Below, one piece after another: positions 3,465 through 32,918 of a stretch of DNA of 64,000 bases. Position 1 is the first letter of the stretch. Each line of letters opens with the position of its first letter. The notes below the pieces were generated by a model that was not told the origin of the DNA, did no database searches, and saw nothing but the letters and a program-made list of their open reading frames with translations. The translations under genes were made by a program, and so were the position numbers. The stretch comes from Meandrina meandrites (Eukaryota > Cnidaria > Anthozoa > Scleractinia > Meandrinidae), in assembly GCA_963693305.1 (NCBI GenBank), contig OY855911.1:31611939-31675938 (forward strand). The letters run 5' to 3'.

Positions 3465-6206
3465 TCAAGGCGAAGAATCGGCTTCTTCATTTGCGCATTT
3501 CTCGTGGCGTGGCTGCGAACTGTGGCTCATAGATGCCTCGTATGATGGCGGAGGCACACTTGGTAAGGGTCCGGCTGTAAAAGGAGGGAATACACGCCCA
3601 GTATATGAACTGAGTTGTGGACATGGTGTACTGGTGTCTGGGGCTGGATTATTCATCCCTGCAACAGACGATAGCAGAGGAACGTTCGGATGGGATGTCG
3701 CTAGGTAATGGAGAAGTAAGGCTCCAGCATTTGGATTATAAGCTGAGTAAGGCATGCTAAGGCTTTGGGTTAGATCCATTTGTCCAAGGTATGGATTAAG
3801 AGGTGGGTTGCCTGTTCCTACATCAGTCATCGCCGACAACACTGGGTCGCCTGTGTGGGTGTTGTCTGGACCACTTGACTCCATAGCGGACGGTACGTTA
3901 CCAGCCAGGCCTATATCAGGATCCACTTCCCTTGGCGGTGTTGTGCGTTTGTACACCATTTTCTTCAAGACGTAGTGTCCTTTATCTGTTTTGGCCCTAA
4001 ATAGCCAGCGGTACGGCCAAGTCATCTGCAACAAGGTGGCGATCCAAAAGAACAGAGGCCGAATCCAAAACGGCTTCACGTTCAAGTTTGCGTACGCAGA
4101 GATCCTCTTCTTCAAACCAGGGACTTCTTTAGTAGACGAGTATTCATAGAGGACATCTCGGTGTCGATTTCTCCGAATCATTTCTGCCACTTGCCTTTCA
4201 TAAGCATCCGCCGTTTGCTGATCACCGAATTGGATACTAGAGTCGATCTGGACCCTAGTTAGAGCTGAGTTACTCTCTGCAAGCATCTCTCTCTTTGAAA
4301 CATCGACCCATGAATCGAACGAGAACACCTCCCGGTCCACAAATGTCAATATTTTCCTTCTGGTATTCACGTAAGTCCCCGTACGGGAATGTCTATTTCC
4401 ACTAGGGTCTCTGTAGTGTACAACTCGCGTGTCAGTTTCGAAATGATAGCATTCCACAACCATGTTAATTTTCGGTGGGACACCGCGTATTCTTTGTAGG
4501 TACTCCAAAGCCGTCTCGTCTTCTATGATGTTTCTCAGGTAATCCAGCTCGTCGCAGAAGAAGCTCTCTAGCAGGACGATCGCAGGAGAGAGACATAACA
4601 TCACAATAGCGAAGATTCTCAACATGTAAAAGACTTCACCGTACCTGGTGCAGTGAGACACTTCGCAACCAACAAGGTAAATAAGCCACAGGTAGAATGA
4701 GAAATTCATGTCCATGGAAAAAATCCGGCTTAAAGTGACTTTTCGAGATCTGTAGAAACCTTGTTCGTTCATTCCACTATCACTTTGGCTTTCTTGGCCG
4801 CCTTGCTCGAGCTCTCCTGGACCTCCTGTTGCAGTAACTCCCGGTGTGAGTCTCAACTCGTCGCCGACGTGACTGTGCTCCATTCTCTGCCTGTATTTGG
4901 CTTCTTTGTATTTTCTCCAGCAGGAAGCGCAGCACCACAGGAATATAGGCAGAAAGATTTGCAAGTGGAAAGCAACATTCAGGACAAGTGGGACTGAAAT
5001 AGGCTTGTCATCAAAGTTGATGATTTTTGCCTTTGGCGTGCTTTGAGTTCGGGGACCTGGAATCGCAGTCGGAGGCGGAGTCGTAGTCCCGTATTCGTCT
5101 TTGCAAGCCGATCCTAGCCCGCTCCAGTAAGAACTGTTATTGCCATCCACACAAAGATAAAACCTTGTAGATGGATTCCAACCACTACAGAATGACAAGC
5201 CAAGGTCCCCGGGCCGTTTTCCCAAGTATGTAAGATTGTTTGAGGCAGGACACTGTTTGTTGACGGAACATGTCAATCCCGTGAACCCGGGAGCACAAAC
5301 ACAGAGCGTTTCGTTTCCGAAGGTGAAAACGCAAGTGGCTATGTTGTCACATGGACTTGATTGACAAATGTTCGCCATTGAAGTCACGCCCCTACACATT
5401 ACTCTGAGACCGGGCATGAGACGCCACCCAAACATTCCCAACCATTGGGACCAAGTCTTGGTGATGTATTCAGGTCTTAGGGCCACGTCCTTAACTCTCA
5501 TTTTAAAATCACTAGTCCAGTACGATTCACTTACCACCCAGTAGCCGTTCACGTACTGCAGATACCATGACTTGGCGCTGTGCTTATAGACAGGACGAAG
5601 ATTGCGAAACAAACCAGCAACACGATAGAAATAATCTTTTGTGAGATGGTCCCAATTGTTCCCGTTATTGTTGTTCATGCGCTCGTTCCAGAAGTAAACT
5701 CTGTCCGAGTTACATTCTCTGAAATCTCTGCCCACACACACGGCTTTGATCATAGGAAAAGAAGCAGCTATGGACACATTGTAGTCATTCTTATGGTTTC
5801 TGTTGTGGTACTGCCAATGGTGAACAAGCCCACCGAAAACATCACTCCTGTCTAATGTCCCGGAGCTAAGCCAAGATGACGGATCACTGGAAAGTCTAGC
5901 AGTCACGCCATATTGGTATAAAAAGTCGTCTCCCAAATCCTTTCTAGCAAACACCAAAAATTTGTCACCCTTCTTGTTGATATGGTAATATAGTCCCAAG
6001 TAATGTTCGGAATTCTCTCGGTGGTACACAGGAAAATTGTTGTAGTAGTCATTCTTGTTATGAATGTAGACACCTTCGATCATTTTGTATGGCATGGTCC
6101 ATTCGTTGATGTTTTGGAAAAAAATCCTCGGACATAACGTCCTAGAACTTGTAAATATGGGCCATGTACTAATCAGCACAAAGCAAAAGAGTATATTTGA
6201 TGCCAT
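3465..6206 (-). CDS. EGF/sushi-like receptor fused to a TMEM151-type membrane domain, paralogue 1
   Basis: Intronless, 913 residues from the ATG at 6206. An in-frame extension starts with TTG, and the second paralogue begins at the equivalent MASN, so this start is preferred. Order of parts: signal peptide (1-22); two copies of an unnamed module, GVY...FPVY (about 44-95) and GLF...RPVYKHS..WYLQYVNGYWVV (about 198-225); EGF-like domain with six cysteines (281-313); sushi-like four-cysteine module with RPGD, C, C, W, C (about 319-368); Thr/Pro stalk; TM1 (about 403-426); basic linker; TM2 and TM3 (497-514, 524-548); a domain of about 165 residues; TM4 (713-736). From TM2 to HYVLKKMVYK the layout matches TMEM151A/B: LLESFFC after TM3, FSFDSWVDVSKRE, ALTRVQI, FFWIATLLQMTWPYRWLF. 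The Pro-rich tail ends in PPPSYEAS, a PPxY (WW-domain) motif as in TMEM151. The function is unknown; probably a cell-surface protein. Confidence 0.85.
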   Translation of the reverse strand: MASNILFCFVLISTWPIFTSSRTLCPRIFFQNINEWTMPYKMIEGVYIHNKNDYYNNFPVYHRENSEHYLGLYYHINKKGDKFLVFARKDLGDDFLYQYGVTARLSSDPSSWLSSGTLDRSDVFGGLVHHWQYHNRNHKNDYNVSIAASFPMIKAVCVGRDFRECNSDRVYFWNERMNNNNGNNWDHLTKDYFYRVAGLFRNLRPVYKHSAKSWYLQYVNGYWVVSESYWTSDFKMRVKDVALRPEYITKTWSQWLGMFGWRLMPGLRVMCRGVTSMANICQSSPCDNIATCVFTFGNETLCVCAPGFTGLTCSVNKQCPASNNLTYLGKRPGDLGLSFCSGWNPSTRFYLCVDGNNSSYWSGLGSACKDEYGTTTPPPTAIPGPRTQSTPKAKIINFDDKPISVPLVLNVAFHLQIFLPIFLWCCASCWRKYKEAKYRQRMEHSHVGDELRLTPGVTATGGPGELEQGGQESQSDSGMNEQGFYRSRKVTLSRIFSMDMNFSFYLWLIYLVGCEVSHCTRYGEVFYMLRIFAIVMLCLSPAIVLLESFFCDELDYLRNIIEDETALEYLQRIRGVPPKINMVVECYHFETDTRVVHYRDPSGNRHSRTGTYVNTRRKILTFVDREVFSFDSWVDVSKREMLAESNSALTRVQIDSSIQFGDQQTADAYERQVAEMIRRNRHRDVLYEYSSTKEVPGLKKRISAYANLNVKPFWIRPLFFWIATLLQMTWPYRWLFRAKTDKGHYVLKKMVYKRTTPPREVDPDIGLAGNVPSAMESSGPDNTHTGDPVLSAMTDVGTGNPPLNPYLGQMDLTQSLSMPYSAYNPNAGALLLHYLATSHPNVPLLSSVAGMNNPAPDTSTPCPQLSSYTGRVFPPFTAGPLPSVPPPSYEASMSHSSQPRHEKCANEEADSSP

Positions 6207-7181
6207 GTTGAAAGCTTTTGTACGGATATGCTTATTGAGAGAAGACAAAAATTAAACTGACGCGGAATTGCTGAAACAATTTTATTTTCCTTACATATAA
6301 TGACGCATATTGCAACGACTGATACATGCTTTGACAGTTTTGTGACCACGACGATTATGACGGGTTATGATAATGCACTCCGCATTCAATCACGCATATC
6401 GTGCAATCACGCACGTATCGTGCAGTTATCACACGAACAGTTCAAGATGGAAAAATGTAAGTCTTTAAAGACGTTACCCGGTTCCAATCAAAGAAACCTT
6501 AATTTTTTTATCGAAAACTTTCTGAATTTATTTTTAAAATGTGCCCCTTTCGAAAGCAAAATCCGTCAAAACAATTTTCTCGCAAAAAATTCATTTTGCC
6601 CGATTGTGTATTTTAGACTTCCGGTTCTTGTTCCTCGTCACGTCTTGTGTTTGGGTCAAATGTCGCTACTTTGGTTTGTAAACGTTTTTGGAATATTCTT
6701 CCTGTTTCTCCAGTCTTTCTAGTTATTTGCATCAGTGATTGCGAGAAAATATCAGGATAAGAGGGAAACATCGATGCTGCGGTGAGTGTGAACGTGACTG
6801 AGCCTGCGGTCTTCTGGTCAGTACCTGATATTCAAAATTTGATTCTTGTCAATAAATTGAATTCTTCGACTTCTTTGACTTGGTGTCTGCCCGTTGTTGA
6901 TGCAAAAAGAAAAAGACCAATGATCAATATTGCAATGCCAGATTGTCCTTTGTTTGGTCAAACAAATCACGTGACATACCAGCAAAGCCAGTGACGTCAC
7001 AATATCGAAAATACGGCCAGTATCGTAAAACCATATCGATCCATACTTGTTTGTGGGATAATATGGAGATTATTCAGCGGACCAAAATATATCGTAGCCC
7101 GCTGCCGTGCGACCTAGCCACCTACAAATGTAATTCAAATTGACCAATAAATTATCAAATTAAATTTACCGAATTATATTA
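6207..7181. other. Upstream region of paralogue 1
   Basis: First part of the 4-kb region between the divergent genes; it should contain the promoter of the minus-strand gene. I see no clear TATA box or coding sequence. At 6360-6425 the short phrase ATCACGCA / ATCGTGCA recurs. The longest ORF (6300-6722) has no recognisable feature. Confidence 0.4.
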
Positions 7182-7385
7182 GGGATCTTCAGATCGGAGT
7201 ACGAGATCGAGGACGAGTACGACTTTCGAATTTCAATCCAGTTATGTTCCCAGAGCCTTCACTCCTCCCTGTTGCTGACCAGTTGAAAAGGAGACTATCG
7301 GTATGAGACTTGAGTGAAATGTGATAATCGAGAGCATAAGCACTAGGTTTGAAAAGTTGTACTCGTACTCCGATCTGAAGGTCCC
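7182..7385. mobile_element. 204-bp MITE with 5-bp duplication
   Basis: Terminal inverted repeats GGGATCTTCAGATCGGAGTA and GGGACCTTCAGATCGGAGTA (one mismatch, then continuing) bound the element. TATTA flanks both ends directly (7177-7181 and 7386-7390). No coding capacity. Confidence 0.85.
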
Positions 7386-7521
7386 TATTATCACTTTTAC
7401 CTTTCCCTTCTCAAACTCATTAATAATTCACCTAGTTAAAACAAAGGAAATCAGAACCGTGTCAGAGTTTGGAAATTTTTGCGATTTTATTTCTCTGTTT
7501 TCTCCGTAGTTTTAGTTTCGA

Positions 7522-7684
7522 TTGAGAAGATATATCAAACACTCGAGAGAGTGTTTCATCACATGTCCAAGCACCTCGAAGTTCGTCAAAAATACTCCGC
7601 TGCGCGTCGTATTTTCAACTCTCTTCTCGGTGTTTGGAAATGTGATGAAAAACGCTCTCTCGTGTTTGATATATTACTTCTCAA
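7522..7684. mobile_element. Short inverted-repeat element
   Basis: The ends TTGAGAAGATATATCAAACA and, on the other strand, TTGAGAAGTAATATATCAAA with ACACGAGAGAG are inverted copies of about 30 bases with small indels. The symmetry may extend into the flanking AGTTT. No clear target duplication was found, so the exact borders are uncertain. Confidence 0.65.
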
Positions 7685-7734
7685 ACTGAAAAAGAATCTG
7701 CAATACAAAACAGACTAGAACGCGGCGCGCGTGG

Positions 7735-8615
7735 ACTTGTGGGCCAGTTGTACCGCACTCCTGTTGCCCGCTTTTCACTTGGAACCCGCGCAACAAATTT
7801 TGCCGCCTTTTTCGTGCAAGACGGCAAGGACCAAAGTAAAAAGCAATCCTGCCCCGGCGAACGTATGTTTGGTTAGTGATGGCAACCATCCAACGCACTA
7901 TATTCTGATTAAGCATAGCAAAGTATTAGCATGCAAATAACCCCAGATATCATTTCAGCCATGTGAGATGCGGGCAACCTTTAAGAATTGACGATGGGTG
8001 CTTAAAACAGCGGGTAGCAGAGTCCAAAATGAAGCCCAGTTGAGGTCAAACTTCAGTATCTCGAAAAAATTGATCAGTCAAAATTGCCATTCCTTGGAGA
8101 AATATTTTTAGCGTCAGGAATTTTTGATCAGAAGTTGTAGAGAAATTTTATCGGTCAAGAACAGGTTAGGAACTGGTCAAGAATCAAAAATAGTTTTAAT
8201 TTCCTTAATGAAATGCCTAAGGGTTAGAGTAAGTTCTGCTCTTGTGCGTGTACTTAAGTTAGTCGCGTCGTTTTCCAATTTGTCAAAAAACCAAATTAGT
8301 TTTTACGACTTTTTCAAAATGCACGAGAAACTCCTGCTCAAACTTAAAACCGCCTTTGCTCTTTAGACGAAATGACGAAGTTCCGACCGCGACATGCGGG
8401 CCCATTCCACAAGCTTTCTAATTCAGACGGGCAGTATGCATGCCTACCCTAACAGGTTTATATTTTATTAACAGATCTTGTTTCCCGCCTTTCACCCCAA
8501 TTTTGCCGCCTTTTTCGTACCAGTCGGTAGTCGATTCATTATTCGAGACGGCAAGAATCAAAATATAAAGCACGCAGTCCTGCCCCAAACGTACGTTGAT
8601 CAGTTTTAATCTTGA
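7735..8615 (+). repeat. Two diverged direct copies of one segment (7750-7870 and 8470-8605)
   Basis: Both copies contain, in the same order, CCCGC.TTTCAC, AATTTTGCCGCCTTTTTCGT, AGACGGCAAG, AAGCA followed by GTCCTGCCCC or ATCCTGCCCC, and an ACGTA motif. The second copy has an insertion with ATTCATTATTCGAG. They lie between the divergently transcribed paralogues, so this may be a local duplication of upstream sequence or an old repeat family. Confidence 0.6.
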
Positions 8616-10192
8616 ATCGTTTACAAAACGTTTGAAAACCGGTGACCACACTGACCATAACGTTCTGATCAAATTAAAGACGTGACAGGAAGTCCTTGAA
8701 ATACACAACAGGCTGAAATGAAATTTTTGCTGCGAAAATGTTTTAACAGATTTCGTTTTCTAAAGCGGTGCAAAAAACGTGCTAAAAACATTTAGACTTG
8801 AGATAAAACTAGCTTAAAAAGGTTCTCTGAAGGTTCCTTTCGTGGGAATCGAGTAAGGTCTTCGACGGTCGTCGCGTGATCAGTTTTGCTTTCTCTGGTA
8901 TAGAGGGAGGTTGTTGCACAATGCCAGTGTTCGTGATCGAATGCGTCACTAAGTCCCTTGTTTTAAGTGCCTCAAACAGTTTACTAGTCTGCCTTGTCTT
9001 TGATGAGATTTAGCGCCGCCATGCATGGCGTGTTCACTATTCCGATCCAAGGCCGTGACGTTTGTCTGAATACCATTTGAGGTATATAGGACAGTTTTCG
9101 AAACTACAGCCCCTGCATCGGTGTCCTGAACAAATAATATATCCAAATAGAATTAAAAGAATTGCTATTCACCGGGAGAAAGTATAAATTTATAATGTAA
9201 AAATGGCTATTAATTATTAGCTTTCACTTTATCATTTATTCTCATGATGGTTGCAAATTCGAAATAAACATTCGCTGAAAGTCAAACAAACCTCATACTG
9301 TGTGAAAACAGTTGAAAACATTTAGCAAAAAAAAATGTTTTGACTATAGCCCTTCGAGACAGCATCAAGCCCTTCTAAATTGTAATTAAAAGCACGCAGT
9401 TTAGCCTGCTATTGGTTTGATCACTGGATTATTGATGATCTCCTCCGGCGATTAATGTTTCCTTTTCTCATGATGTCAGTTTTTGCTAAAAGCTCTTTTT
9501 AGTTAGATTAGATAGTCATTGTATTATATTGACTCGCGTTTCTCGATCGACTGATTCCTTTCATAATTTCAAAAATGCGTTGTATCTGTTGAATCACTAA
9601 AGCTGTGCACCATCCGGAAAACACGCAAATGGAATTAAATAGTTTCAAAGTACCAAATTGTTTGGTTTGTTTAAGTTTTGCAAATTCAAATTGTTGCAGC
9701 ATTCATTAACTATCAAAAGTTCGCAGCTTAGTCGCGTGATCCAAGCTTGCTTTAAAGAAACGCTGAAGCGTAACATTTATTCATTCAACAGAGAAAAAAA
9801 ATTATACTTGTATTCCTGTTGATTAAGTTAGGACTCAAGGGGTAGGAAAACGTGAAGTGATTCATCCACCCGAGCGCCGTTACCCTGAATATCATCTTTG
9901 GTTGTGTCGCTCGAAGAAAGATCTTGGAAGAGATCTTAAACCGCGACCCTCTGCCAAAAAAAAAAAAACAAACAAAGAAGTCCGAGACTCCGGGCCTTGC
10001 GGCAAAACGTTCAAGATTCCGAGACGGAAACAAAAAAAGAAAAGCAAAAGTTCGTGATTCATCGCAAAGGCTTCCGAAATCTCGAGCTCATAACAAAAGT
10101 TTCGGGAGACCCTCAATTTTCCAGGAACCATCCTCGACGGTGTTGGCGACTTCACTCAACAGGCATAGCCATTTACACAGAAGCTTTCAAAC
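8616..10192. other. Upstream region of paralogue 2
   Basis: No gene seen. It holds an A-run near 9957-9968 and purine-rich sequence to about 10050, close to where 5'UTR and promoter of the plus-strand paralogue should lie. I found no convincing TATA box. Short ORFs here have no recognisable motif. Confidence 0.4.
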
Positions 10193-12868
10193 ATGGCGTC
10201 AAATTTGCTCTTATGGCTTGTGCTGTTTAGTATATGGCCCGTAGTTACAACTTCTAGGACGTTATGTCCGAGGATTTTTTTCCAAAACATCAACGAAGAG
10301 ACCATGCCATACAAAATGATCGAAGGTGTCTACATTAATAAGGAGAATGACTACTACAACAATTTTCCAGTGTACCGCCGAGAGAACGACTATGACTTGG
10401 GACTTTATTACCATAACGACAAGAAGGGCGACAAATTTCTGAAGTTTGGAAACGATATTGGGGATGGCTCTTTACTTCAATATGGCGTTACTGCTACACT
10501 GTCTAGTGATGCCTCGTCTTGGCTTAGCTCCGGGACTTTAGACAGGAGTGATGTTTTCGGTGGACTTGTTCACCATTGGCAGTACTACAACAGAAGCGAT
10601 AGGAATGACTACAATGTGCCCATAACTGCTTCTTTTCCGATGATCAAAGCCGTGTGTGTGGACGATGATTTCAGAGAATGTAACTCGGACAGAGTTTACT
10701 TGAACGAGAGCATCAACGACAAAAACGGGAACATTTTGAACCATCACACAACAGATTATTTCTATCGTGTGGAGGGATTGTTTCGCAATCTTCGTCCTGT
10801 CTATAAGCACAGCGCCGTGTCGTGGTATCTGCAGTACGTGGACGGCTACTGGGTGGTAAGTGAATCGTACAGACCGAGTAATTCTGAAGAAAACGCTATA
10901 ATGAGAGTTAAGGATTCGGCCTCAAGACCTGAATACATCACCAAGACTTGGTTGCAATGGTCGTTTGGATGGCGTGACATGCCCGGTCTCAGAGTAATGT
11001 GTAGGGGGGTGACTTCAATGTCGAACATTTGTGAATTAGATCCGTGTGACAGCAAAGCCACTTGCGTTAACACTACCGATAGAGAAACACTCTGCCTCTG
11101 TACTTCCGGGTTCACGGGTTTGAGATGCTCTGTCAACCAACAGTGTCCCCCCTCAAACAAGTTTACATACCTGCAAAGACGACCCGGGGACCTTGGCTTG
11201 TCATTCTGTAGTGGTACATATCCCTCTACAAGGTTTCTCCTTTGTGTGGATGGCAATAACAGTTCTTACTGGAGCGGAGAAGCATCGATCTGTGAAGAAG
11301 AAGAAATAGAAGATAACGGGACTATGACTCCTACTACCACTCAAGGCTCTTTGGCAGATCCTCAAGGTCAAGCCATGCTCAAGGGAAACTCAATAAACTT
11401 TGATGACAAGCCTTTTTTAGTCCCACTTGTCATCAGTGTTGCCATCCTCACGCAACTGATCCTTTTGCCGTTCGTCCTGTGGCGCTGCGCCTCCTGCAAG
11501 AGGAAATGCAAGGAAGCCAAAGACGACCACAGGGGCAAGGACCACAGTCGCGTAGGCAAGGAATTGAGGAGAGTCAAACGATTACTGAGAATTGCTTCAG
11601 CAGTAGGTCCACAAGAAGTCGAGCAAGGCGTCCGCGAAAATCAAAGTGATGGTGAAAGGAAAAACCTGGGTTTCTGCAGATCTCGAAATCTACGTTTTAT
11701 ATGCCGGCTTGTTTCCATGGAGATGTATTTCTTATTCTACCTGTGGCTTGTTTACCTTGTTGGTTGTGAAGTGTCTCACTGCACCAGGTATGGTGAAGTC
11801 TTTTACATGTTGAGAATCTTCGCTATTTTGATGTTATGTCTCTCTAGTGCGATCGTCCTGCTAGAGAGCTTCTTCTGCGACGAGCTGGATTACCTGAGAA
11901 ACATCATAGAAGACGAGACGGCTTTGGGGTACCTACAAAGAATGCGCGGTGTCCCACCGAAAATTAGCATTGTTGTGGAATGCTATCATTTCGAAACAAA
12001 TAGGCGAGGTCTGCCCTGCAAAGACGAGAGAGGAAATATGACTTTGAACATGAACGGCAGAAAGAAAATAGTGACATTTGTTGACCGTGAGGTGTTCTCG
12101 TTCGATTCATGGGTCGATGTTTCCAGGAGGGAGATGCTTGCAGAGAGTAACTCAGCTCTAACTAGGGTCCAGATCGAATCGAGCATCCAATTCGGTGATC
12201 AGCAAACGACGGATGCTTATGACTGGCAAGTGGCAGAAATGATTCGGAGAAATCGACATCGAGATGTCTTCACTGAGCACTCGTCTACCAAAGAAGTTCC
12301 CGGGTTGAAGAAACGGGTCTCCGCGTTTTCAAACCTGAACGTGAAGCCGTTTTGGATTCGGCCTCTGTTCTTCTGGATTGCCACCTTGTTGCAGATGACT
12401 TGGCCGTACCGCTGGCTATTCAGGGCCAAAACAGATAAAAACCACTACGTCTTGAAGAAAATGGTGTACAAGAATACAACACTGCCAAAGGAGGTGGATT
12501 CACCTGGTAATCCATCTTCTGTTGTGGAGTCCAGAGGTCCAGGCAATACCTATCCTGGTAACCCAGTGTCGGCGATGATTGATCCAGGAACAGGCAACCC
12601 ACCTCTTAATCCATACATCGGACAAGAGGATCAAAACAAAAGCATGTGCATGGCTTACTCAGCTTTCAATCCAAATGCCGGAAAACTATCGGCTCCTTGT
12701 CCAGAGGTATCCCATCCGAATGTTCCCATGCCATCGAATGTTGGAGAGTTGAACGAACCAGCCCCAGACATGCGCAGTGCACCATGTTCACCTTTCAGTG
12801 CCTTTGCTGAGTCTGAATTCTCTCCTCATGCAGCCGAACCCGTACCAAGTGTGCCACCGCCTTCATAA
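10193..12868 (+). CDS. EGF/sushi-like receptor fused to a TMEM151-type membrane domain, paralogue 2 (tail truncated)
   Basis: Intronless, 891 residues, starting MASNLLLWLV at 10193. Same architecture as the minus-strand copy at 3465-6206: signal peptide (1-21); first module around GVY...FPVY (45-90); second module around GLFRNLRPVYKHS..WYLQYVDGYW (195-220); EGF-like (C280-C312); sushi-like (C318-C367); acidic/Thr stalk; TM1 (408-430); basic linker; TM2 (511-527), TM3 (537-560), TMEM151-type domain, TM4 (720-742), then HYVLKKMVYK. Between TM2 and TM4 it is almost identical to paralogue 1, while the stalk, linker and tail diverge. The protein stops at PSVPPPS: a TAA sits where paralogue 1 has the TAT codon of PPxY, and the following 22 codons remain alignable. 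The gene is otherwise intact and is likely functional or only recently altered. Confidence 0.85.
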   Translation: MASNLLLWLVLFSIWPVVTTSRTLCPRIFFQNINEETMPYKMIEGVYINKENDYYNNFPVYRRENDYDLGLYYHNDKKGDKFLKFGNDIGDGSLLQYGVTATLSSDASSWLSSGTLDRSDVFGGLVHHWQYYNRSDRNDYNVPITASFPMIKAVCVDDDFRECNSDRVYLNESINDKNGNILNHHTTDYFYRVEGLFRNLRPVYKHSAVSWYLQYVDGYWVVSESYRPSNSEENAIMRVKDSASRPEYITKTWLQWSFGWRDMPGLRVMCRGVTSMSNICELDPCDSKATCVNTTDRETLCLCTSGFTGLRCSVNQQCPPSNKFTYLQRRPGDLGLSFCSGTYPSTRFLLCVDGNNSSYWSGEASICEEEEIEDNGTMTPTTTQGSLADPQGQAMLKGNSINFDDKPFLVPLVISVAILTQLILLPFVLWRCASCKRKCKEAKDDHRGKDHSRVGKELRRVKRLLRIASAVGPQEVEQGVRENQSDGERKNLGFCRSRNLRFICRLVSMEMYFLFYLWLVYLVGCEVSHCTRYGEVFYMLRIFAILMLCLSSAIVLLESFFCDELDYLRNIIEDETALGYLQRMRGVPPKISIVVECYHFETNRRGLPCKDERGNMTLNMNGRKKIVTFVDREVFSFDSWVDVSRREMLAESNSALTRVQIESSIQFGDQQTTDAYDWQVAEMIRRNRHRDVFTEHSSTKEVPGLKKRVSAFSNLNVKPFWIRPLFFWIATLLQMTWPYRWLFRAKTDKNHYVLKKMVYKNTTLPKEVDSPGNPSSVVESRGPGNTYPGNPVSAMIDPGTGNPPLNPYIGQEDQNKSMCMAYSAFNPNAGKLSAPCPEVSHPNVPMPSNVGELNEPAPDMRSAPCSPFSAFAESEFSPHAAEPVPSVPPPS

Positions 12869-12937
12869 GAGGCATCCGTGACCCACAGTTTCCAGCCAAG
12901 CAACGGGAAATGTGCAGAAGCCGTTTCCTCGCCTTGA
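12869..12937 (+). other. Conserved former C-terminal tail beyond a premature stop
   Basis: Read in frame after the TAA at 12866-12868, these bases give EASVTHSFQPSNGKCAEAVS then SP and TGA. Paralogue 1 has EASMSHSSQPRHEKCANEEA then DSSP and stop in the same place. The stretch is therefore old coding sequence that is now 3'UTR, or is reached only by stop-codon readthrough. Confidence 0.8.
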
Positions 12938-14038
12938 CCCCGGCGACCTTGTGAGTTAAATTTATTTTAAAAACATGCAAGATTTTGCAACATTGTGAAA
13001 AGTTAGGAGGGCGTATGCGTTACGCAAAGCGTCTTTAGCGTGACTTCCTAAATAACATTTTCTCAGTTAAGTTGACAGTGCAAGTAATTTGCGTATTTAG
13101 CCTTTCATGTAATGTGAAAATACGGCGAAAAGTCAATTATCTGAAGGTTTTTATTTACATTTGTAGCCTTTTATTGATTTCAGCGAATTAGACTTAGAAG
13201 CACGATGTGTGTTGATGATATTTGTCAGTCAGCCTGATGAAAAGGGGAAAATCAATTCTAACTAAAGCTTTAATGAAAACAAACGAAACGGAGAAATTGC
13301 ATTTCATTGAAAATGTCTCAAATAGCTCAGTTGCAATGCAACTTAAATCAATTAGGTCGTATAAGTAACTTGGCCGTAGAAACCATTTAGGCAATGAAAA
13401 CCAATCGCATGGTGTAGAGAAGAGAGTGTGTTTTAAACTTAATCCCAAGTTAGAGTTTTGTATTGCTAAGACAACAAAGTGAAGTTTGTTGTTTCCATTC
13501 CGTAAGATTGCTTGATTTTTGTTGTCGGAGAGGCCTGTGAATTAAAAGTTTATAGTTTTATTGTAAAAAGATAGCGTCATTGATTAACGCATCCATTTGG
13601 TTTTGTTCATTTATTTTTTGCTTGGATGCGCATGCGTATCAAGCACAAAAGAAGAAACGAAGTCACTCTCGTCCCAGGGCCCTACTCATTCTCGTTACCA
13701 GAGCCATCAATTCTTTTGGTCACGTGATCAGCATGAATTTTGTTGCAAATAGCTATGGGGCGGGAAAGAATTACTCTTTTATCAATGTCGTTTCGAAAAC
13801 CACTCGACCAAAAGAACAAGGGGCGAGTTTAAGATAGAAGCGCCCGCGAACAAAATACGCGTGTAGCCCTCCGCGTGTAGTCCTCCCACGCGTGGCCGAA
13901 AATCTTGCGCCATATTAGTATTTTCACCCCCTGGCTGTACCTGCTATAAGGCGTTTGAAAGTATCATACAACAAAGGGATTTTAAAATGATTGATTTGAG
14001 TGGCTCCTAGACTTTAAATTCCCTTTGTTAAAATCTAA
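12938..14038. other. Intergenic, no gene seen
   Basis: Sequence downstream of paralogue 2, AT-rich to about 13600. From about 13660 there is more GC-rich sequence with GGTCACGTGATC (13719-13730) and CGCGTGTAG repeated near 13857 and 13877. No ORF with recognisable content. Confidence 0.4.
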
Positions 14039-14364
14039 CAAGGGCGTAAGTAGGCGGGGGGTGGGGGGGGGGGGGGGGGGGAGGGGCGTGATCCCCCTTT
14101 CCCCTTTGTGAAATAATCTTTTAAGAAAATAGCATATAAACTTTAAAATCCAGATGGCAAAAACGTGCGAATCCGAAGAATAAAGTAACTTAAAGCAACT
14201 TTATTTTATGAGGGAAAATGCCATTAAGTTTTTCCAGTGCTAGATAGCTACATACTCTATTTTCAGGACCAATCACGTGCAGTGCAAGTAGCCTGGGTGG
14301 TCTGACACAGTGTGACCCCCCCCCCCCCCCCCCCTCCGTTTGGAAAATCCTAGCTACGCCCCTG
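14039..14364. mobile_element. Inverted-repeat element with G-run and C-run arms
   Basis: The left end AAGGGCGTAAGTAGGCGGGG and the right end, complement AGGGGCGTAGCTAGGATTTT, are inverted copies. A run of about 21 G at 14061-14081 faces a run of about 20 C at 14318-14335. The end sequence GGGCGTAGCTAGG resembles the termini of common hAT-type MITEs. No ORF of its own; target duplication not clear. Confidence 0.6.
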
Positions 14365-14982
14365 TCGAGCCAATCAAATAATGTGTCTCCAGAGCCACCT
14401 GTTCCTCGTGCCAAGGCCCCGCCGACAAAGTGGGAAGGGAGGCTATGGGGACCAGAGTGAGAGTGGGAGATGATCCCGTTCTATTCCGTGCTATGCGTTC
14501 GTTCCAAACAAATTGTTCGTCTATTTCTTTTAATTCCCTCGTTTTTTTTTATTCATTTTTTTCTTTTCTTCATTTCCTTCATTTTTTCTTTCTTCTTTCC
14601 TTAATTTTATCAAAAAGTTAAACGCTTAAATATTTTAAAAATCGTTGTAAAAAAAACTCTAAAAACAGGAAGACGGCACTTCTCTACTCTAGTACTCTAT
14701 TCTCTTCTTTCCTTAATAATCGTCAACACTAGCAGTTGTTATTTCTTAACTGAACCTTTATGTCTTTTAAATATATTCTTCCAAGCATAAAGTAATGAAA
14801 CTTAAAAACTTTGCGTTGTGAAGTCAACTTGCTCTGTGATTCTCCTATTTTTGTGAAAAATTAAAAAAGTTGAAAAAGTTAGGGCAAATTGGCCAGCGAT
14901 TCTACATTACTCTACTGTAGCAACTCGTCATTTATATTGCTATCCTGGTTGTCAATTTACTTTAGCGCAACAGCGAGTTCAC
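14365..14982. other. Intergenic, 3' flank of paralogue 3
   Basis: AT- and pyrimidine-rich (TTTCTTTTCTTCATTTCC-type sequence at 14525-14610). No gene seen. It includes the 3'UTR of the minus-strand gene that ends at 14983. Confidence 0.4.
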
Positions 14983-17322
14983 TTAAACGGCCATGTAATT
15001 TCTGCTCCCCTGTTCACCGCTGATCAATGGTTTGTTTGCATCGTCAGTGCCCTGAGCGCCTGGCGTATCGGGAACTTGTGGGAGTCCAATTTGACCAGGA
15101 CCACTTTCTATATCTGGACTAACCACTTGAAATCCGGTCTGCGTGGTGGAATCAGCAGGATTGCAGAATACCTTCTTCTTTAAGGTGTATTCGGCGGAGC
15201 TTGTACAAGAGACGAAGAGCAATCTGTAGAGCCAGGACAATTGAAGGAGGGTGGCATACCAAAAGAACCATTCGTTTATCCAAAAAGGCACCGTATTCTT
15301 ATCAGGGCACAAGACGACGTACGGTCGACGGTTTGGCACACTGTCTTTCCGAGAAAAAGCATAATAGTTATTCAAGTGACTCGTTTTCTCAATCAAGGCC
15401 AACTTTTGAGCTTCAAATGACGGTACAGCCTCTCCTTCAAGCGTGACATCAATGTGAATGCAAAGTCGGACAAGCTTTCCGTCACCACTGAGCTCAAGAT
15501 TGGACTCATCTTTCCATGATGAGTAAATGAATGGTTGGCGTAAGGTCTTCTTGTTTACCTTTTTCCACTCGTCTGTTGTTCCTTCATATTCTCTCTGCCC
15601 TGTGCTCGGATTCGTACGGTACACGGCTTGGCGGTAATGCTTCAAGTCGTACCGTTCTATCACCATTTCAATAGCAGGCGGAGACCTCTGGAGGGATCTG
15701 ATGTATTCCCAAGAGACCAGATAATGTAGCGCTTCTCTTTCGCAGGAAAAGAACGCTTCGATGATAACAAATATTGCGCAGACTCCACACATTGCAACAG
15801 CCCAATAAAAGAGAGAGGAACGGGAATTTCCTTCCTGTGTGGATATATAGACGCAGACAGCACACAGCCACACCCAGAACGCAAAGTTTAAGAACGCGGA
15901 GAAGACACGCACCATTAGCATAAAACGTCCTTCTGTTGCATTGCCAACAGCCTTCAAACGCTCAGGAGTTCCTGCTTGGGTGCGGCTACAACTGCGGACT
16001 AGTTTAGTTATTACTATACCTAGCCAAATGAAAATTGGGCAGATAATGTGACAGGCAAAGAAAGCGATGACAAATATCATGAACGTTTCTGAGTAATCCG
16101 CGGGCTCGTCATCGACGGGAACTTGGTTTCCCGGAGTGTGAGGTTGTGGAACAGGAGTGACAGGTGGCAGAACAGTTGTTGTTGATTCTGGAACACGACA
16201 CGTCGCCTCTGATTCAAGCATCCAAGACTTGCTTCCACCATCTTGCTCGCAAACATAAAACTCCACAGGCGAAGAACTGTATCCTGCCGTGCAAAATGAG
16301 GTCGCAATGTCACCGGGACGCTTTCCAGACTGGACCACACTGACTGAAGAAGCCGGGATCTCCGGATCAGAACACCCAGCTCTGTTTTCACAGCGAGGCC
16401 CGTACGCGGAGTCTTGACAAAGACAAACCGTCTCATTCTCTGAAGTATAAACGCATCTACCATAGTCATTACAAGTGGAACTACCACCGCACTCGTTTTC
16501 GCCATTAGCGAATCCTCGACATTTGATTCTCAATCCACTTTCCGTAGTCCATTCCGTTCCAGTCCACTTCTCCCAGAAACTTGTAACATACTCCGGCCTC
16601 AGTGCGAAGTCCTGCACACGAAGTATGTCTACAGATGAACCAGAATAACTCGTGCCTATCCTCCAGTAACCATCATGATAGTATAAATACCAGTTTTGTC
16701 GGTTGTGCTTGAATACGGGTCGTATCGATTGATAAACGCCGGGAACCGTTGCGAAATAATCTGATCGAGGATCATTCAGAACTTCACTTTTACTTCCGGT
16801 GATTGTGTCATTCAAGTAAACTTTATCCGAATCGCATCGAAAATACTCATCGTCGACACAAATGGCTTTGATATATGGTGGGCCTCTGACGGCTTTGAAT
16901 TTGTTTTCTAGAGGAGAGTAGTACAACCACTCACTGATCACATCACCAAACAAATCTTTCTTGTTTACCGTCCCTGATGACAGCCACGTTTTTGGATCAA
17001 AGTCGTTCGGCAGACGACCAACAACGCCAAAGATCTCCGTCACTTTGTGTCCAAAAATTAAAAACTTCGTTCCTTGGGTGGTGTCATCCTTGTAGTAGAA
17101 GAACAGGCTTGAAGGATCGTTCAGGTACACGGGAAAGCCATCTTTATCCGAGAACAGCTTGTACACTCCTTCAACTTGAACCCATGGATTGACGGTTTCA
17201 TCGATATTCTTGAAGAATATTTTGGAACACATTTTCTTTTGGGATAAGCTCGGCCCGATTGCTGTCAAAATGAACGCTAGACGACATAGTAAAATGAAAT
17301 AACGAGAGTTCATCTTGCTCAT
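14983..17322 (-). CDS. EGF/sushi-like receptor fused to a TMEM151-type membrane domain, paralogue 3 (divergent)
   Basis: Intronless, 779 residues, ATG at 17322. Architecture is that of the other two copies but sequence is far more diverged. Signal peptide (1-27); first module GVYKLFSDKDGFPVY...TKFLIF (52-90); second module VPGVYQSIRPVFKHNRQNWY through GYWRIG (193-223); EGF-like (about C278-C311); sushi-like (C317-C375, with RPGD, FC, VC, W, C); Thr/Pro stalk; TM1 (about 413-435); linker; TM2 (477-494), TM3 (503-523), TMEM151-type domain with IEAFFSCEREALHYL, IEMVIERYDL and FIYSSWKDES; TM4 (685-703, FFWYATLLQLSWLYRLLF), then YTLKKKVF. The tail is short, lacks PPxY and ends RNYMAV. The shared plan across this divergence shows that the fusion is an established gene family and not an assembly error. 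Confidence 0.85.
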   Translation of the reverse strand: MSKMNSRYFILLCRLAFILTAIGPSLSQKKMCSKIFFKNIDETVNPWVQVEGVYKLFSDKDGFPVYLNDPSSLFFYYKDDTTQGTKFLIFGHKVTEIFGVVGRLPNDFDPKTWLSSGTVNKKDLFGDVISEWLYYSPLENKFKAVRGPPYIKAICVDDEYFRCDSDKVYLNDTITGSKSEVLNDPRSDYFATVPGVYQSIRPVFKHNRQNWYLYYHDGYWRIGTSYSGSSVDILRVQDFALRPEYVTSFWEKWTGTEWTTESGLRIKCRGFANGENECGGSSTCNDYGRCVYTSENETVCLCQDSAYGPRCENRAGCSDPEIPASSVSVVQSGKRPGDIATSFCTAGYSSSPVEFYVCEQDGGSKSWMLESEATCRVPESTTTVLPPVTPVPQPHTPGNQVPVDDEPADYSETFMIFVIAFFACHIICPIFIWLGIVITKLVRSCSRTQAGTPERLKAVGNATEGRFMLMVRVFSAFLNFAFWVWLCAVCVYISTQEGNSRSSLFYWAVAMCGVCAIFVIIEAFFSCEREALHYLVSWEYIRSLQRSPPAIEMVIERYDLKHYRQAVYRTNPSTGQREYEGTTDEWKKVNKKTLRQPFIYSSWKDESNLELSGDGKLVRLCIHIDVTLEGEAVPSFEAQKLALIEKTSHLNNYYAFSRKDSVPNRRPYVVLCPDKNTVPFWINEWFFWYATLLQLSWLYRLLFVSCTSSAEYTLKKKVFCNPADSTTQTGFQVVSPDIESGPGQIGLPQVPDTPGAQGTDDANKPLISGEQGSRNYMAV

Positions 17323-18459: not shown

Positions 18460-21400
18460 ATGACAGACGTAGCAGACATCGAGGACCAAAGCCGTCGAAA
18501 TGAATTGGAAGCGGAGATGTCACGGTAATGTATAACAGTTCGTTGTTCACTTTCAAAATTCAAAGCGATCCTTCTGTCAGACAGCTGAAAGAAAACTCTT
18601 GAGGAACTTGCCTTGTCTAGATTTAAGTCCAAAATTAGAAGCAAAATACGTTTGGTTGAGAGAATAACCCCCTGTTGAACGAGATTGTTTTTTCTGAAGA
18701 AATACCTCGTGCAAAATGCTGAAAAAAAAAAAAAAACGTTTCAAAGCTTCTAGATTTCATAATTTTCAGGGGGGGGGGGGGGCATGCTCCTCCAGACCCC
18801 CCTAGAGGCTCGCACCTTCGGTTATTGCAGATCTTGCCTCGCCTTTGTCAAAAGTTTGGCTATGGCCCTTTTGGAGTCGAGACGTGATAACTGATAATTA
18901 ACAATTGAAGGGCCGCGAAAGAAAACGTCCCCCTCGAATTTTGGCAAAATTGAACATTGTCAAAAACATTCCAAATTTCACATGCAGGTTTGTTTATGTG
19001 TGCTTTACACTGACCTGTATCTCATTTCGTGTGTCTTTGCTTTCGTGTCGATAATTATCGTATGCAGAAATGAAAATAAAGTGCTTGCAGCTTTCATTCT
19101 TCACAGTCAGCCAGTAGTATGAGTTTTTCAACACAATGCGTGGTCATCTTTCTTCGTAGGGTTTTGTAAGTGTAACGGGAAGGCGAGAAGAACTTCAAAC
19201 GCGCCATTACAAGAAATTGCGATGCCGCAGCCATGTTTTCATTTTGATTTGCCTTGGGGGGGGGGGGGGGGGTTTAGAAAGGGACTGGATACCACATTGT
19301 GAGGTTGAGCTGATGTGTGAGAAAAGGAAAAAAGATGGCGATTTGCTTGTGAGAATAAAATGCTTTGAGTGCAACCATCTGGTGGTTGAAGGACATCATT
19401 AAGTCTGGATACTCGCAAGTCAATAGCATCTCTCGAAGAACTGAGGGTTGTTCTGCGCTTTGTTTGCACAATAGCGCTATTTTAGGCGCTGGAGGTGAAA
19501 GTTGTCCGACAAAGGCAGGTTGATCCAGGCGGGAAGTCTAAGGCAGGTTTCTTGTCGGGAACTTTGTCAGCACGAGTTTTGCAGTGTTGGCGGGGATGCT
19601 GCGGCATCAAAGTTGCCGATAAGCGAGCTGGTTTTAGACTTATCCAAATTGTTGGAGTGTTGCGGGCAGGACCTCTCCTGTCGACAAAATTCCCGGTACC
19701 TCATTAAATATTCATCGATCGATCGATCAATCGATGCAGCCGAAAACCAAAAAGTGCGTGAAGTCCTGTCTTGATTTCGCGGGATTTTTTGTAGTGTGTG
19801 TGATGCGATGATGCAAGGATTGGAGAAGTGAGAGCAAACAGTGCTTTACTGAAAGCAAAACTAAGATGTAGTATGAAAACCAGCGTTAAATTTAATGTCG
19901 ACGGCGACCGCCATGCATGTTTACTTCGCGTTCGTTAAATCGGATCGACAGAGCGCGTGTCGTGTCACAAAAGTAGTCGAGTGTTGTGGAGCCAAACAAG
20001 GGAAAAAAAAAAAACAGCTAACTGCAAGCACACCGGATGGAAAGCTAACCGCAAGCAAACCGAAGTGAAAGCTAACCGCAAGCAAACCGGAGTGAAAGCT
20101 AACCGCAAGCAAACTGCACTCAAGGCTAACCGCGGGCCTAGGGTTAAGCGTTTGGTTTATGGCTCAAATGCTAACCCTAATCCCAAATTTTAACCCTAAA
20201 CTGAAACGCTAACCCTAAACCTTGGAGTTAGGGTTAGAGTTAAAGTTTAGGCTAGGGCTTAGAGTTTGGTTTAAAACAGCCGTAACTGGTTAACCGGTTA
20301 ACCTTCGCTGATTTCATTGTTTCAACAAATGAAAGGCTTCTTTTGTTTATGCCTTATCCAATTAAGACGTTGCAAGCGAAAGCCGTGTTTTTTTGCATGC
20401 GTAATTTATGGAGAAAGAGACCAAACAACAGCGAAAGAAATACCGGGCAATGTTAAACACACATAAACAAAGCTACATGCAATATTTGGAGTTGTTTTGA
20501 CAATGTTCAATTTTGACAAAATTCCAGGAGGACGTTTTCTTTTGCGGCCTTTCAATTATTCACCGAAGTGAAGCTGAATACTGTGCATATTTACGGAGCC
20601 GAGAAGGCATGTACTAAAACCCGAAACAACGAAATGAAACGAGCAGAACCACCAAAACGACCGAAACGAAACCGCCGAAACGGCCAAAATGAGCGAAACG
20701 AAACAAAATCGCCAAAACAAGGAAAACCATTACTTTTATTGAGAGCTAACCATAAACAGGCTAACCTGGGCGTTTTTCAGGCTAACCTGAGCGATATTCA
20801 GGCTAACCAGAGTGCTATTTAGGCTAACCTGAGTGCAAGGTACACTCCGGTTAGCTTGAATGGCACTCCGGTTAGCTTGAATATCACTCAGGTTAGCCTG
20901 TTTACGATTAGCTCTCAATAATGGTAATGGGTTTTGCTTGTTTCGTTTTGGTCATTTCGGTGGTTTCACTTGTTTCGTTTCGGTGGTTTCATTTTGTTGT
21001 TTCGGGTTTTAGTACTTGCCAGCCGAGAAGTGGCAAGGTAAATATACACCACTTTCACCAACACTTAGATGAATAATTGGTTCAGTATATACCACACAAG
21101 CTGAATAACTAGCGGACCAAAACATTACTTTCAGTACCCAAAGCAACACAGGAAGCCATTTTGTTTCTGTTCAGCTGCTCAGAGGTTAAAAGTACTTTGC
21201 TAATCACCTCTGAGTTAACCAATCAGCATGCATGGAAAGCACTATTCACTTGTGTGGTATATACTAATTTGGATTAATTTTAGTACGCCATCTGAATTGG
21301 CCATGACTTCAAGATCAAATTTGTACTAAACTTGGCAGGTGGGTGAAGCAACAAAAAACCTTTGCTTACATAACAATATTGCCTTTCAGATTTGAGCAAG

Positions 21401-26463: not shown

Positions 26464-27961
26464 CTCCCAAAATGTTTTTACAACAAGCACCTAGGTTTGT
26501 TGTAACTGTGCATGTAACTGTATTTGTCTGGAACTGAAGTGGGGGGGGGGGGGGGGGGGGGTGGATTACTAAAAAAATATTGTACTGGGAGGTTCCACCC
26601 CAACATCCTAACCCTTACCATTTCATATACATTTTTGACAGAAGAGGGACTTTACCCCTTTCATATACCTTTGATAGGTCTGTTCAATATATTTTGAAAG
26701 GCCGTTTTAAATATCTAAATGACAGTTTTCCTTACCCTTTTGTATACTCCAACTTGTGAAATTCCTCCCTTTTATATACCTATATGTAGAGCCTGAAAAA
26801 GGCATCCCTTTCAGGTGGAGCCTTCCCATATAGTCCACTATAGCGAGTACCCCCTCCTCCCAGGGATATTTGTAAGCTTTATCTGCATTATCATCTGTCT
26901 TTTCTTGGATTGAAATTTCACTTTCCATGCAAGCTTAATTATTAATAGGCCTTTTGCAATTGTTGGTCAGGTGACGTTCATTTCTCATTATATAAACTTG
27001 ACAAGAATTGGTGGAGAACTAACTACAGCACGATTGATCAGAAATCGAGGTCCCAAGTCTGGAGTCTCTAATACAGCCCATGGAATCATCCTTAGGCTGT
27101 GTCTAGGGGGACTGGAAGAAGGGCAAAGCAATCATTTATATGATTCTTTGCACAAGGGGCTTGGGAGTCTGGGGGCGCTTCCCATTTGCCAGAACTAGCT
27201 GGCCAGACCGGTATGATCAAGAACAGAATTCCGTTGTTAGCCAGATTTGTCCTGTCTAATCAGTCAATACATAAATATTATACATTGTTACGGTGCATTT
27301 GTGAGAAATTCTTGTGGAAAAGGTCTAGTTCACTATCAAAACCACTGGGCCAGCCGGCCAGTTCTGACAAAAGGAAAGTGCCCTGGAACTTCACCTGTTT
27401 TACATATAAAATTACAATAGATTATTTTCTGTCCCCTTCATGCTTATCACATTACTCCTTTATTCCCCAGCATACCCCTGTAGTTGGCCCAGTGCTTACC
27501 CCAGGGAAAACCTTGAGATATGAGCATTTGGATGATGAGCCCTGGGATTATGTTTTTCTCAACATGCTATCTTGGTAGGCTTATTTTCAAACTTTGACAG
27601 CACATTAGGTTGCAATAGGTGATCTCTTCTTTGTAAATACTTTATGGTTTATATCTTTTCCTAAATGTGGAGTTCTTTTTTGCCCAAGTATAACATCGTA
27701 ATAATTATTAGCACATAATAATTTATGTCAAGAAAAAAAAATATTAAAAGAATGATTTAATTTCCCAGAAGGTGTCGAGAGACTTTTTGTTCGTTCAAGA
27801 ACCCTTTTTAGTAACGTTTATTTTGATTGGCTTAAAATGTGGTGTGTCCCGAAAATTAACCAATCAAATTTGACCTTGTACCAAAGGTAGTGAGCTTGCA
27901 AAAGGCTCCGACACCTGTTTTGTTGTAAATTCTGAAGTACGATTCTGTGGAATTATTCAAT
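26464..27961. other. Intergenic between RBM42 and SC5D
   Basis: Includes a G-run at 26541-26561 and poorly conserved sequence. An ORF at 27186-27578 contains a stretch, 27472-27575, bounded by a good acceptor (TTCCCCAG) and donor (TTG|GTAGGC) and reading HTPVVGPVLTPGKTLRYEHL then DDEPWDYVFLNML. I do not recognise it and see no partner exon. Bases about 27780-27961 should hold the SC5D promoter and 5'UTR. Confidence 0.4.
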
Positions 27962-32516: not shown

Positions 32517-32650
32517 TGGGGGGTAGGGAGGTAGTTAGTTGATAATAATTTTAAAGTGGCTGATGGAAATACCGTGTCTAAATAAAGTTATTGCATCATA
32601 TGTTGGCAAATGTGTTGGCATGAAATTGCGTGATTGCAAGTACTTATTAC

Positions 32651-32918
32651 ATAAAGGACGAAGGATAATCCGAATAAGTTCATTGTGCCACAATAATTTT
32701 GACAACAAATGATGATCTTGGAAAATAAACTGTAATATTTCGGTGTAAGCTATACCATCATCAGACTAGATGATGATGATGGTATAGCTTATACCGAAAT
32801 ATTACAGTTTATTTTCCAAGATCATCATTTGTTGTCAAAATTATTGTGGCACAATGAACTTATTCGGATTATCCTTCGTCCTTTATGCACTGAAACTATC
32901 ATCAGGTACTGGGTTTTG
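32651..32918. repeat. Near-perfect hairpin flanked by a 13-bp direct repeat
   Basis: Bases 32651-32758 and about 32779-32886 are inverted copies of about 108 bases with a single mismatch (GTGTAAG versus GTATAAG), separated by about 20 bases around CATCATCAGACTAGATGATG. The whole, plus a 32-base tail, sits between two copies of AAGTACTTATTAC (32638-32650 and 32919-32931). No coding capacity on either strand beyond chance. Confidence 0.9.

Follow-up and report, generated by a model that had tools for sequence, protein, structure and literature searches.

A family of coral and sea anemone proteins that join an EGF/sushi-type ectodomain to a TMEM151 region

TMEM151 is a membrane protein of the brain whose function is unknown and mutations of which lead to a human movement disorder. 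Human TMEM151A is described in PMC11250761 as a protein of 468 residues; its two putative TM segments are placed at 45-65 and 98-118, so that a large ectodomain would not fit ahead of them. Tmem151a-EGFP was located in the ER and not at the surface of COS-7 cells, according to PMC8437987, and TMEM151A/B are classed among the uncharacterised three-TM proteins, or trispanins, in PMC6987440. A search of open-licence papers by title and abstract start found among its best matches no paper describing a fusion of an ectodomain with TMEM151. Such a fusion had been predicted from the coral sequence analysed here, and profile matches and named relatives support an EGF/sushi-type ectodomain joined to TMEM151 as one conserved family.

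An ORF search of the window, the whole 64,000-nt stretch of DNA, identified three long uninterrupted frames (Table 1), and a fourth copy was not found in the window by tblastn (E <= 1e-3). As originally predicted, the three genes share one architecture, each being a single uninterrupted ORF that encodes an ectodomain, one TM helix and a TMEM151 region. When copy 1 was compared with copy 2, dN/dS was 0.63 for the whole pair and 0.80 for module B; values of 0.37 for module A and 0.39 for the cytosolic domain indicate that parts of both halves are under constraint.

Table 1. Position of the three genes and their features in the window
Feature	Coordinates	Strand	Basis or remark
Copy 1 ORF	3465-6206, opens with TTG at 6248	-	first ATG at 6206, giving 913 aa
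Copy 1 modules A + B (res. 24-274)	5385-6137	-	conserved Cys, strand order
Copy 1 EGF-like domain (res. 277-316, six Cys)	5259-5378	-	Pfam match
Copy 1 sushi-like module (res. 317-373, four Cys)	5088-5258	-	
Copy 1 TM1 (res. 404-430), basic stretch after	4917-4997	-	hydropathy, model, charges
Copy 1 TMEM151 region: TM2, TM3, alpha/beta domain (res. 491-752)	3951-4736	-	Pfam, models
Copy 1 PPxY (PPSY, res. 886-889)	3540-3551	-	motif search
Copy 2 full ORF	10193-12868	+	891 aa; Pfam TMEM151 51.1 bits
Copy 2 ectodomain (A, B, EGF, sushi-like)	10262-11305	+	domain profiles, Cys conservation
Copy 2 TM1 (res. 411-436)	11423-11500	+	hydropathy, charges
Copy 2 TMEM151 region (about res. 504-763)	11702-12481	+	Pfam, domain profiles
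Copy 2 stop TAA at PPxY Tyr position (TAC in copy 1)	12866-12868	+	copy 1/2 comparison
Copy 3 full ORF	14983-17322	-	779 aa; belongs to second subfamily
Copy 3 ectodomain (A, B, EGF-like, sushi-like)	16186-17232	-	domain profiles, Cys conservation
Copy 3 TM1 (res. 414-438)	16009-16083	-	hydropathy, charges
Copy 3 TMEM151 region (res. 469-725)	15148-15918	-	homology to copy 1
Copy 3 C-terminal NYMAV, predicted class II PDZ-type ligand	14986-15000	-	ortholog conservation

Each copy begins with a hydrophobic segment predicted from its sequence to be of signal-peptide type, followed by an ectodomain with 14 Cys conserved in the family alignment. In copy 1, the N-terminal beta modules A and B are bracketed by C25/C157 and C165/C271, which are the putative Cys pairs. 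No Pfam family match was listed for either module at E up to 10. The proposal that A and B are two copies of one unnamed module agrees with the Cys-pair brackets and a similar strand order, but their sequence similarity is not significant: hhalign gave a probability of 5.9% (P 0.0065; 0.2% in global mode), and the pairwise scores in nine proteins stood out from shuffles only for P0171 (2/300) and P0130 (12/300), with 158 of 300 shuffles scoring as high for copy 1. An internal duplication giving rise to the two modules is plausible, and the evidence for it suggestive. The predicted EGF-like domain scores above the PF00008 cut-off of 21.5 bits in copy 1 (25.5 bits), just below it in copy 2 (21.0 bits) and in copy 3 only as a weak EGF_2 row of 9.8 bits with no PF00008 row, but its six Cys are kept in all three copies; Notch EGFs were the best PDB matches to the copy 1 domain, and EGF domains of Notch and other proteins match the long profile. 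The sushi-like assignment stands less firmly. A four-Cys pattern is conserved and low-Z structural matches to SCR modules were obtained, with an rmsd of about 7-8 A over ~90 residues in most rows, but no copy reaches the PF00084 cut-off (20.7 bits; one row, for copy 3, at 16.8 bits), and the call is weak.

The expected match of the C-terminal half to TMEM151 was significant for copies 1 and 2, which pass the 27-bit cut-off of PF14857 with 60.4 and 51.1 bits, respectively. Copy 3, at 21.5 bits, is under this cut-off and is linked through copy 1, to whose TMEM151 region its own is 29% identical over 267 positions (E 2e-36), with a profile-profile probability of 100%; on these comparisons it appears to be a divergent TMEM151 relative rather than a member by its own score. 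Two of the three copy-3 orthologs scanned pass (P0152, 32.0 bits; P0171, 32.9 bits) and one fails (P0110, 18.2 bits), and precomputed annotation lists PF14857 for only 5 of 22 copy-3-type rows. The model of the copy 1 TMEM151 domain (pLDDT 92.7, pTM 0.80) and hydropathy both see a TM hairpin and the domain that follows it; a linking stretch lies between TM1 and this region, and in the models a TM2-TM3 hairpin leads into an alpha/beta domain that closes with two short helices, after which the tail begins. These helices correspond to the last hydrophobic segment of the original prediction, which is borderline in hydropathy in copy 3 (1.23, only there) and in neither model spans the membrane. Basic residues are commoner after TM1 than before it in copies 1-3. 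We infer a topology of N-out, three TM helices and C-in, with the alpha/beta domain on the cytosolic side. A search for a solved fold of the TMEM151 domain gave no clear match: the top row, at E 0.0029, was a designed protein, and the row below it had an E of 0.067.

The same domains had been expected together in other cnidarian proteins, and complete fused relatives were found in the sea anemones and corals Nematostella, Actinia, Actinostola, Acropora and Oculina (one of the protein searches covering the best 120 of 174 matches). PF14857 scores above its cut-off in Nematostella P0130, Actinia P0019 and Acropora P0050, and the Nematostella and Acropora gene records carry both halves. Modules A and B occur together with TMEM151 in 103 of the 172 proteins examined, a set that holds the three window proteins twice each and many fragments and was scored with domain profiles from the family's own alignment. 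A further 17 of the 172 have TM1 and TMEM151 without the ectodomain, and 11 have the ectodomain without TMEM151, of which 5 possess the family's TM1 and 6 lack it; such one-half relatives could be true variants or else fragments or splice forms. NCBIfam gave no match. One scan for viral relatives and one for prokaryotic relatives, which used one and two short peptide patterns, confirmed none.

Two subfamilies, one with copies 1 and 2 and the other with copy 3, are both fused, although their TMEM151 regions are on average only 28% identical to each other, and they separate with support of 100/100 in a tree of 30 chosen rows. Identity within the copy-1/2 subfamily is 61% for the ectodomain vs 66% for the TMEM151 region, and within the copy-3 subfamily 71% vs 66%. 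Distances in the two halves correlate within the subfamilies (r 0.80, n=68; r 0.98, n=22; Mantel 0.001 each), which would be expected of halves that have travelled as a unit. Mean entropy was 1.34 bits for module A, 1.08 for module B, 0.93 for EGF, 1.49 for the sushi-like module and 1.12 for the cytosolic domain. Because the entropy of the ectodomain is not elevated, we rejected a hypervariable immune receptor as the principal reading.

The tails of the subfamilies carry different motifs. The PPxY expected in copy 1 is present as PPSY and is absent from copy 2, which has lost it through a stop at the Tyr codon; the DNA past this stop still resembles the copy 1 tail. Among 75 long copy-1/2-type tails, 52 have PPxY, which is beyond composition (shuffled mean 23, maximum 36), and 23 lack it; 43 have PPPxY[EDQ] (shuffled mean 0.57, maximum 4). 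PPxY was found in none of the 22 copy-3 subfamily members within the last 90 residues. All 22 have instead a class II PDZ-type C-terminus, with the consensus NY[ML]x[VI], vs 3 of 75 in the copy-1/2 subfamily. In a set of 77 long tails that counts window copies 1 and 2 twice, P[ST]AP occurs in 35 (shuffled mean 6.3, maximum 15), PPxY in 53 and an overlapping P[ST]APPPxY in 9.

We favour, with a probability of about 60%, the reading that the three genes belong to a hexacoral receptor/adhesion family in which the TMEM151 module couples the ectodomain to WW- or PDZ-domain adaptors. The signal peptide would place the ectodomain outside, TM1 would carry the chain into the cytosol and the TMEM151 hairpin would bring it back there, so that the fusion would amount simply to an N-in/C-in TMEM151 attached behind the head of a type I receptor. 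An extracellular protein or glycan would be the ligand of the ectodomain. Tails of the copy-1/2 subfamily could recruit WW-domain proteins through PPxY, for example NEDD4-type ubiquitin ligases, and those of the copy-3 subfamily PDZ scaffolds through their C-termini; the adaptors would then set the location and residence time of the receptor, and copy 2, without PPxY, would escape this control. We infer for the family a role in signalling or adhesion, as had been suggested from the ectodomain.

Adhesion without signalling is the strongest competitor, though still an improbable one. The ectodomain would then bind neighbours or matrix, and the TMEM151 region would do no more than anchor the protein in the membrane and serve its trafficking. 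Many adhesion proteins contain EGF and sushi modules, and relative P0103, which joins the same ectodomain to a different hydrophobic segment and a short tail with no TMEM151 match, suggests that the head may work without TMEM151. However, conservation of the cytosolic domain is similar to that of the ectodomain (entropy 1.12 bits; dN/dS 0.39), and the domain is kept by both subfamilies across 28% identity, which exceeds the need of a mere anchor. A sorting receptor of the ER or endosomes, with a lumenal head that binds cargo and TMEM151 in the ER/secretory pathway as in vertebrates, seems less probable again. P[ST]AP and PPxY motifs serve endosomal sorting, and their occurrence in the long tails, together with the overlapping P[ST]APPPxY, favours this reading; the PDZ-type end conserved throughout the copy-3 subfamily speaks against it, such C-termini being more typical of surface proteins. 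Colocalisation of Tmem151a-EGFP with calnexin in COS-7 cells, as given in PMC8437987, also fits a sorting receptor, but a single overexpressed vertebrate protein says little about a coral family. It is very improbable that the ORFs arose from two genes joined by chance or in assembly: some gene models elsewhere contain one half only, which would fit such joins, but the window has three uninterrupted ORFs, and the same fusion recurs across several named genera and in both subfamilies.

Nematostella, Actinostola and Desmophyllum are not known to have algal symbionts, and since the family occurs in all three (in Desmophyllum as a partial member, P0098), symbiosis is not required for it. PMC7642931 counts 10 TMEM151 genes for Hydra viridissima and 6 for Acropora digitifera, and for five other cnidarians 4, 2, 0, 3 and 3; a link between TMEM151 and symbiosis is treated as a lead only.

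Since coral and anemone genes join an EGF-bearing head to TMEM151, these animals may help in learning what TMEM151 does. Fusion to an ectodomain of ligand-binding type, combined with tails of conserved WW and PDZ type, leads to the guess that TMEM151 is a receptor-coupled module, and the topology and adaptor motifs of the fusion provide testable guesses for vertebrate TMEM151. It is conceivable, but unlikely, that TMEM151 began as the membrane/cytosolic half of a surface receptor. In that case the fused form would be ancient, its two subfamilies having diverged long before the lines of Nematostella and the corals separated, and vertebrate TMEM151A/B would be descendants without the ectodomain; in movement disorder they would then act as a receptor effector or co-receptor. 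Experiments could address the question in Nematostella, which is genetically tractable and has a fused family member (P0130).

The coral proteins share with the TMEM151 family (PF14857; human TMEM151A/B) a TM hairpin followed by a conserved domain, and differ from it in ~375 extra ectodomain residues and one more TM helix. Selectins and complement receptors are EGF/sushi surface proteins; in the coral proteins, by contrast, the membrane/cytosolic part is TMEM151, and the two N-terminal Cys-bracketed modules have no Pfam match at E up to 10. Like trispanins, the coral proteins have three predicted TM helices; in the description of trispanins in PMC6987440, however, the three are counted inside TMEM151, whereas the extra helix of the coral proteins is that of the ectodomain, and the last hydrophobic part of their TMEM151 region is modelled as two short non-spanning helices.

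The three window proteins, whose C-terminal halves had been assigned to TMEM151 by the original prediction, were compared with the Pfam TMEM151 profile (PF14857, cut-off 27 bits). Copies 1 and 2 scored above the cut-off (60.4 and 51.1 bits), and for these the assignment holds by Pfam score; copy 3 on its own fell below it (21.5 bits) and is tied to TMEM151 through copy 1, with which its TMEM151 region shares 29% identity (E 2e-36) and a profile-comparison probability of 100%. When three copy-3 orthologs were scanned, P0152 and P0171 were above the cut-off and P0110 below, and the precomputed column lists PF14857 for 5 of 22 copy-3-type rows. Anemone relatives scored higher than the window copies: 91.0 bits for P0130 from Nematostella and 132.3 bits for P0019 from Actinia, the latter over two stretches that match TMEM151 by Pfam. 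P0019 (Actinia tenebrosa LOC116289751, 1377 aa) is a fused member that may either contain TMEM151 twice or result from the merging of gene models.

Each of the three genes, intronless in the original prediction, occupies a single uninterrupted ORF. Copies 1 and 2, which are oppositely oriented, share 81% DNA identity over a stretch barely exceeding the coding part, and copy 3 has about 30% protein identity to them. No fourth copy was found within the window by tblastn with the three proteins as queries (E ≤ 1e-3). Elsewhere in the window, the proline-rich ORF and the RRM-like ORF downstream of it are reminiscent of RBM42, and three palindromic stretches are perhaps small mobile elements.

Coordinates of features in the window
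Feature	Position	Strand	Remarks
Copy 1 ORF	3465-6248	-	uninterrupted; opens at TTG
Copy 1 first ATG	6206	-	913 aa from there
Copy 2 ORF	10193-12868	+	uninterrupted
Copy 2 stop codon TAA	12866-12868	+	exactly at Tyr codon (TAC) of copy 1's PPSY (PPxY)
Copy 3 ORF	14983-17322	-	uninterrupted
Copy 3 class II PDZ-type C-terminus	14986-15000	-	conserved in 21 relatives
Proline-rich ORF	21343-22176	+	no match in Pfam
RRM-like ORF	about 23378-23599	+	
Fatty acid hydroxylase domain ORF	27947-28798	+	PF04116, 94.3 bits
Self-complementary stretch	7522-7684		78% identity
Self-complementary stretch	32650-32887		96% identity
Self-complementary stretch	34439-34581		81% identity

Three protein searches retrieved 109, 174 (120 of them listed) and 24 relatives. 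Among the matches listed, the named sources were Oculina patagonica, Acropora millepora, Stylophora pistillata, Desmophyllum pertusum, Actinia tenebrosa, Actinostola and Nematostella vectensis, all of them hexacorals. Domain profiles made from the family's own alignment were applied to 172 proteins, a set in which the window's three were each entered twice and fragments were kept. The two N-terminal modules A and B occurred together with the TMEM151 region in 103; 17 had TM1 and TMEM151 only, 27 TMEM151 only, 11 the ectodomain without TMEM151, and 14 were partial in other ways. The head is modular, since P0103 (325 member sequences) has the family ectodomain but no TMEM151 part; in its place stand one unrelated-looking hydrophobic segment and a short tail rich in Gly and Ser. 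Among the matches listed, at least 12 Oculina patagonica proteins apparently lie on one chromosome (34,344,248 bases) with near-consecutive gene numbers, which suggests tandem expansion; some of these rows may be one locus annotated twice.

After removal of duplicates (P0001, P0004, P0144) and partial proteins, 90 near-complete fused proteins fell into two subfamilies, one of 22 around copy 3 and one of 68 around copies 1 and 2. Between the groups, ectodomains averaged 38% identity and TMEM151 regions 28%, so the groups are much further apart in TMEM151 than Nematostella P0130 and Oculina P0007, which share 65% there. A tree was built from a selection of 30 TMEM151 regions, midpoint rooted and so conditional in its branching order; in it the copy-3 group was set apart on long branches (support 100/100). 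Within the copy-1/2 group, Actinia, Actinostola and Nematostella fell outside the remaining 18 rows, including the named corals, with support (85/100) under the tool's star. Ectodomain and TMEM151 distances were correlated inside each group (r 0.98 for copy 3, 0.80 for copies 1/2; Mantel 0.001 each). Because the architecture is identical in both groups, the fusion most likely predates both the subfamily split and the divergence of anemones and corals. Window copies 1 and 2 were placed among Oculina proteins, which makes a stony coral the probable source of the window. Copy 2 pairs with one of these proteins rather than with copy 1 (98/93); the two copies would thus have arisen before the two corals separated, or have swapped sequence.

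Between copies 1 and 2 (dS 0.26), dN/dS for the whole pair was 0.63; the ectodomain gave 0.54 and the TMEM151 region 0.49. Module A (0.37) and the cytosolic domain (0.39) had the lowest values, and module B had 0.80; values for TM2-TM3 (1.81) and the signal segment (2.08) rest on at most two synonymous differences. Constraint is moderate, and neither half is hypervariable.

Conserved tail motifs extend the original prediction, which had noted PPxY in copy 1. PPxY is an established WW-ligand motif, and a C-terminal hydrophobic-x-hydrophobic sequence an established class II PDZ-ligand motif. Each of the 22 copy-3-subfamily proteins ends in the latter in place of PPxY, 20 of them as NY[ML]x[VI]. 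Among 75 long copy-1/2-group tails, 3 have a hydrophobic-x-hydrophobic end and none Y[ML]x[VI]; 52 contain PPxY, against a mean of 23 and a maximum of 36 in shuffled tails, and 43 contain PPPxY[EDQ], against a mean of 0.57 and a maximum of 4, although such shuffles exaggerate independence because kin sequences inherit motifs together. In copy 2, PPxY is lost at the stop codon. The 22 codons between it and the next stop still resemble the tail of copy 1, which suggests a recent loss. As a receptor, copy 2 would then lack the WW handle.

Considering the architecture and motifs observed, these are most likely surface receptors or adhesion proteins, in which the TMEM151 module and tail would couple a contact outside the cell to proteins with WW or PDZ domains. 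The ligand, the position at the surface and the output are inferred. The main published fact found against a surface role is the localization of vertebrate Tmem151a-EGFP to the ER in COS-7 cells (PMC8437987). Among the open-licence papers listed, judged by title and the beginning of the abstract, none describes the ectodomain-TMEM151 fusion. In the open-licence literature, TMEM151 and cnidaria were combined by the Hydra viridissima genome paper alone, whose single mention concerns gene counts per cnidarian (PMC7642931). The sequences themselves are already public, in gene records with names like 'uncharacterized protein' and 'Transmembrane protein 151B'.

Topology was considered from hydropathy and AlphaFold models (copy 1 residues 1-785, mean pLDDT 75.5, pTM 0.47; its TMEM151 region alone, pLDDT 92.7, pTM 0.80). 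Together these give the order N-terminal hydrophobic segment, ectodomain, TM1, TM2-TM3 hairpin and alpha/beta domain. The originally predicted last hydrophobic segment is present in the models as two short helices terminating the alpha/beta domain, but it does not span the membrane. Basic residues are commoner after TM1 than before it in all three copies, and the simplest predicted topology is N-out, with three TM helices and C-in. TMEM151A (468 residues) is described in PMC11250761 with two putative TM segments (45-65 and 98-118); the coral form can therefore be read as a TMEM151 of this two-TM kind to which a type I head has been joined at the N-terminus, which is predicted to be cytosolic. 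Unlike TMEM151A as so described, the coral proteins have an ectodomain head and a third TM helix.
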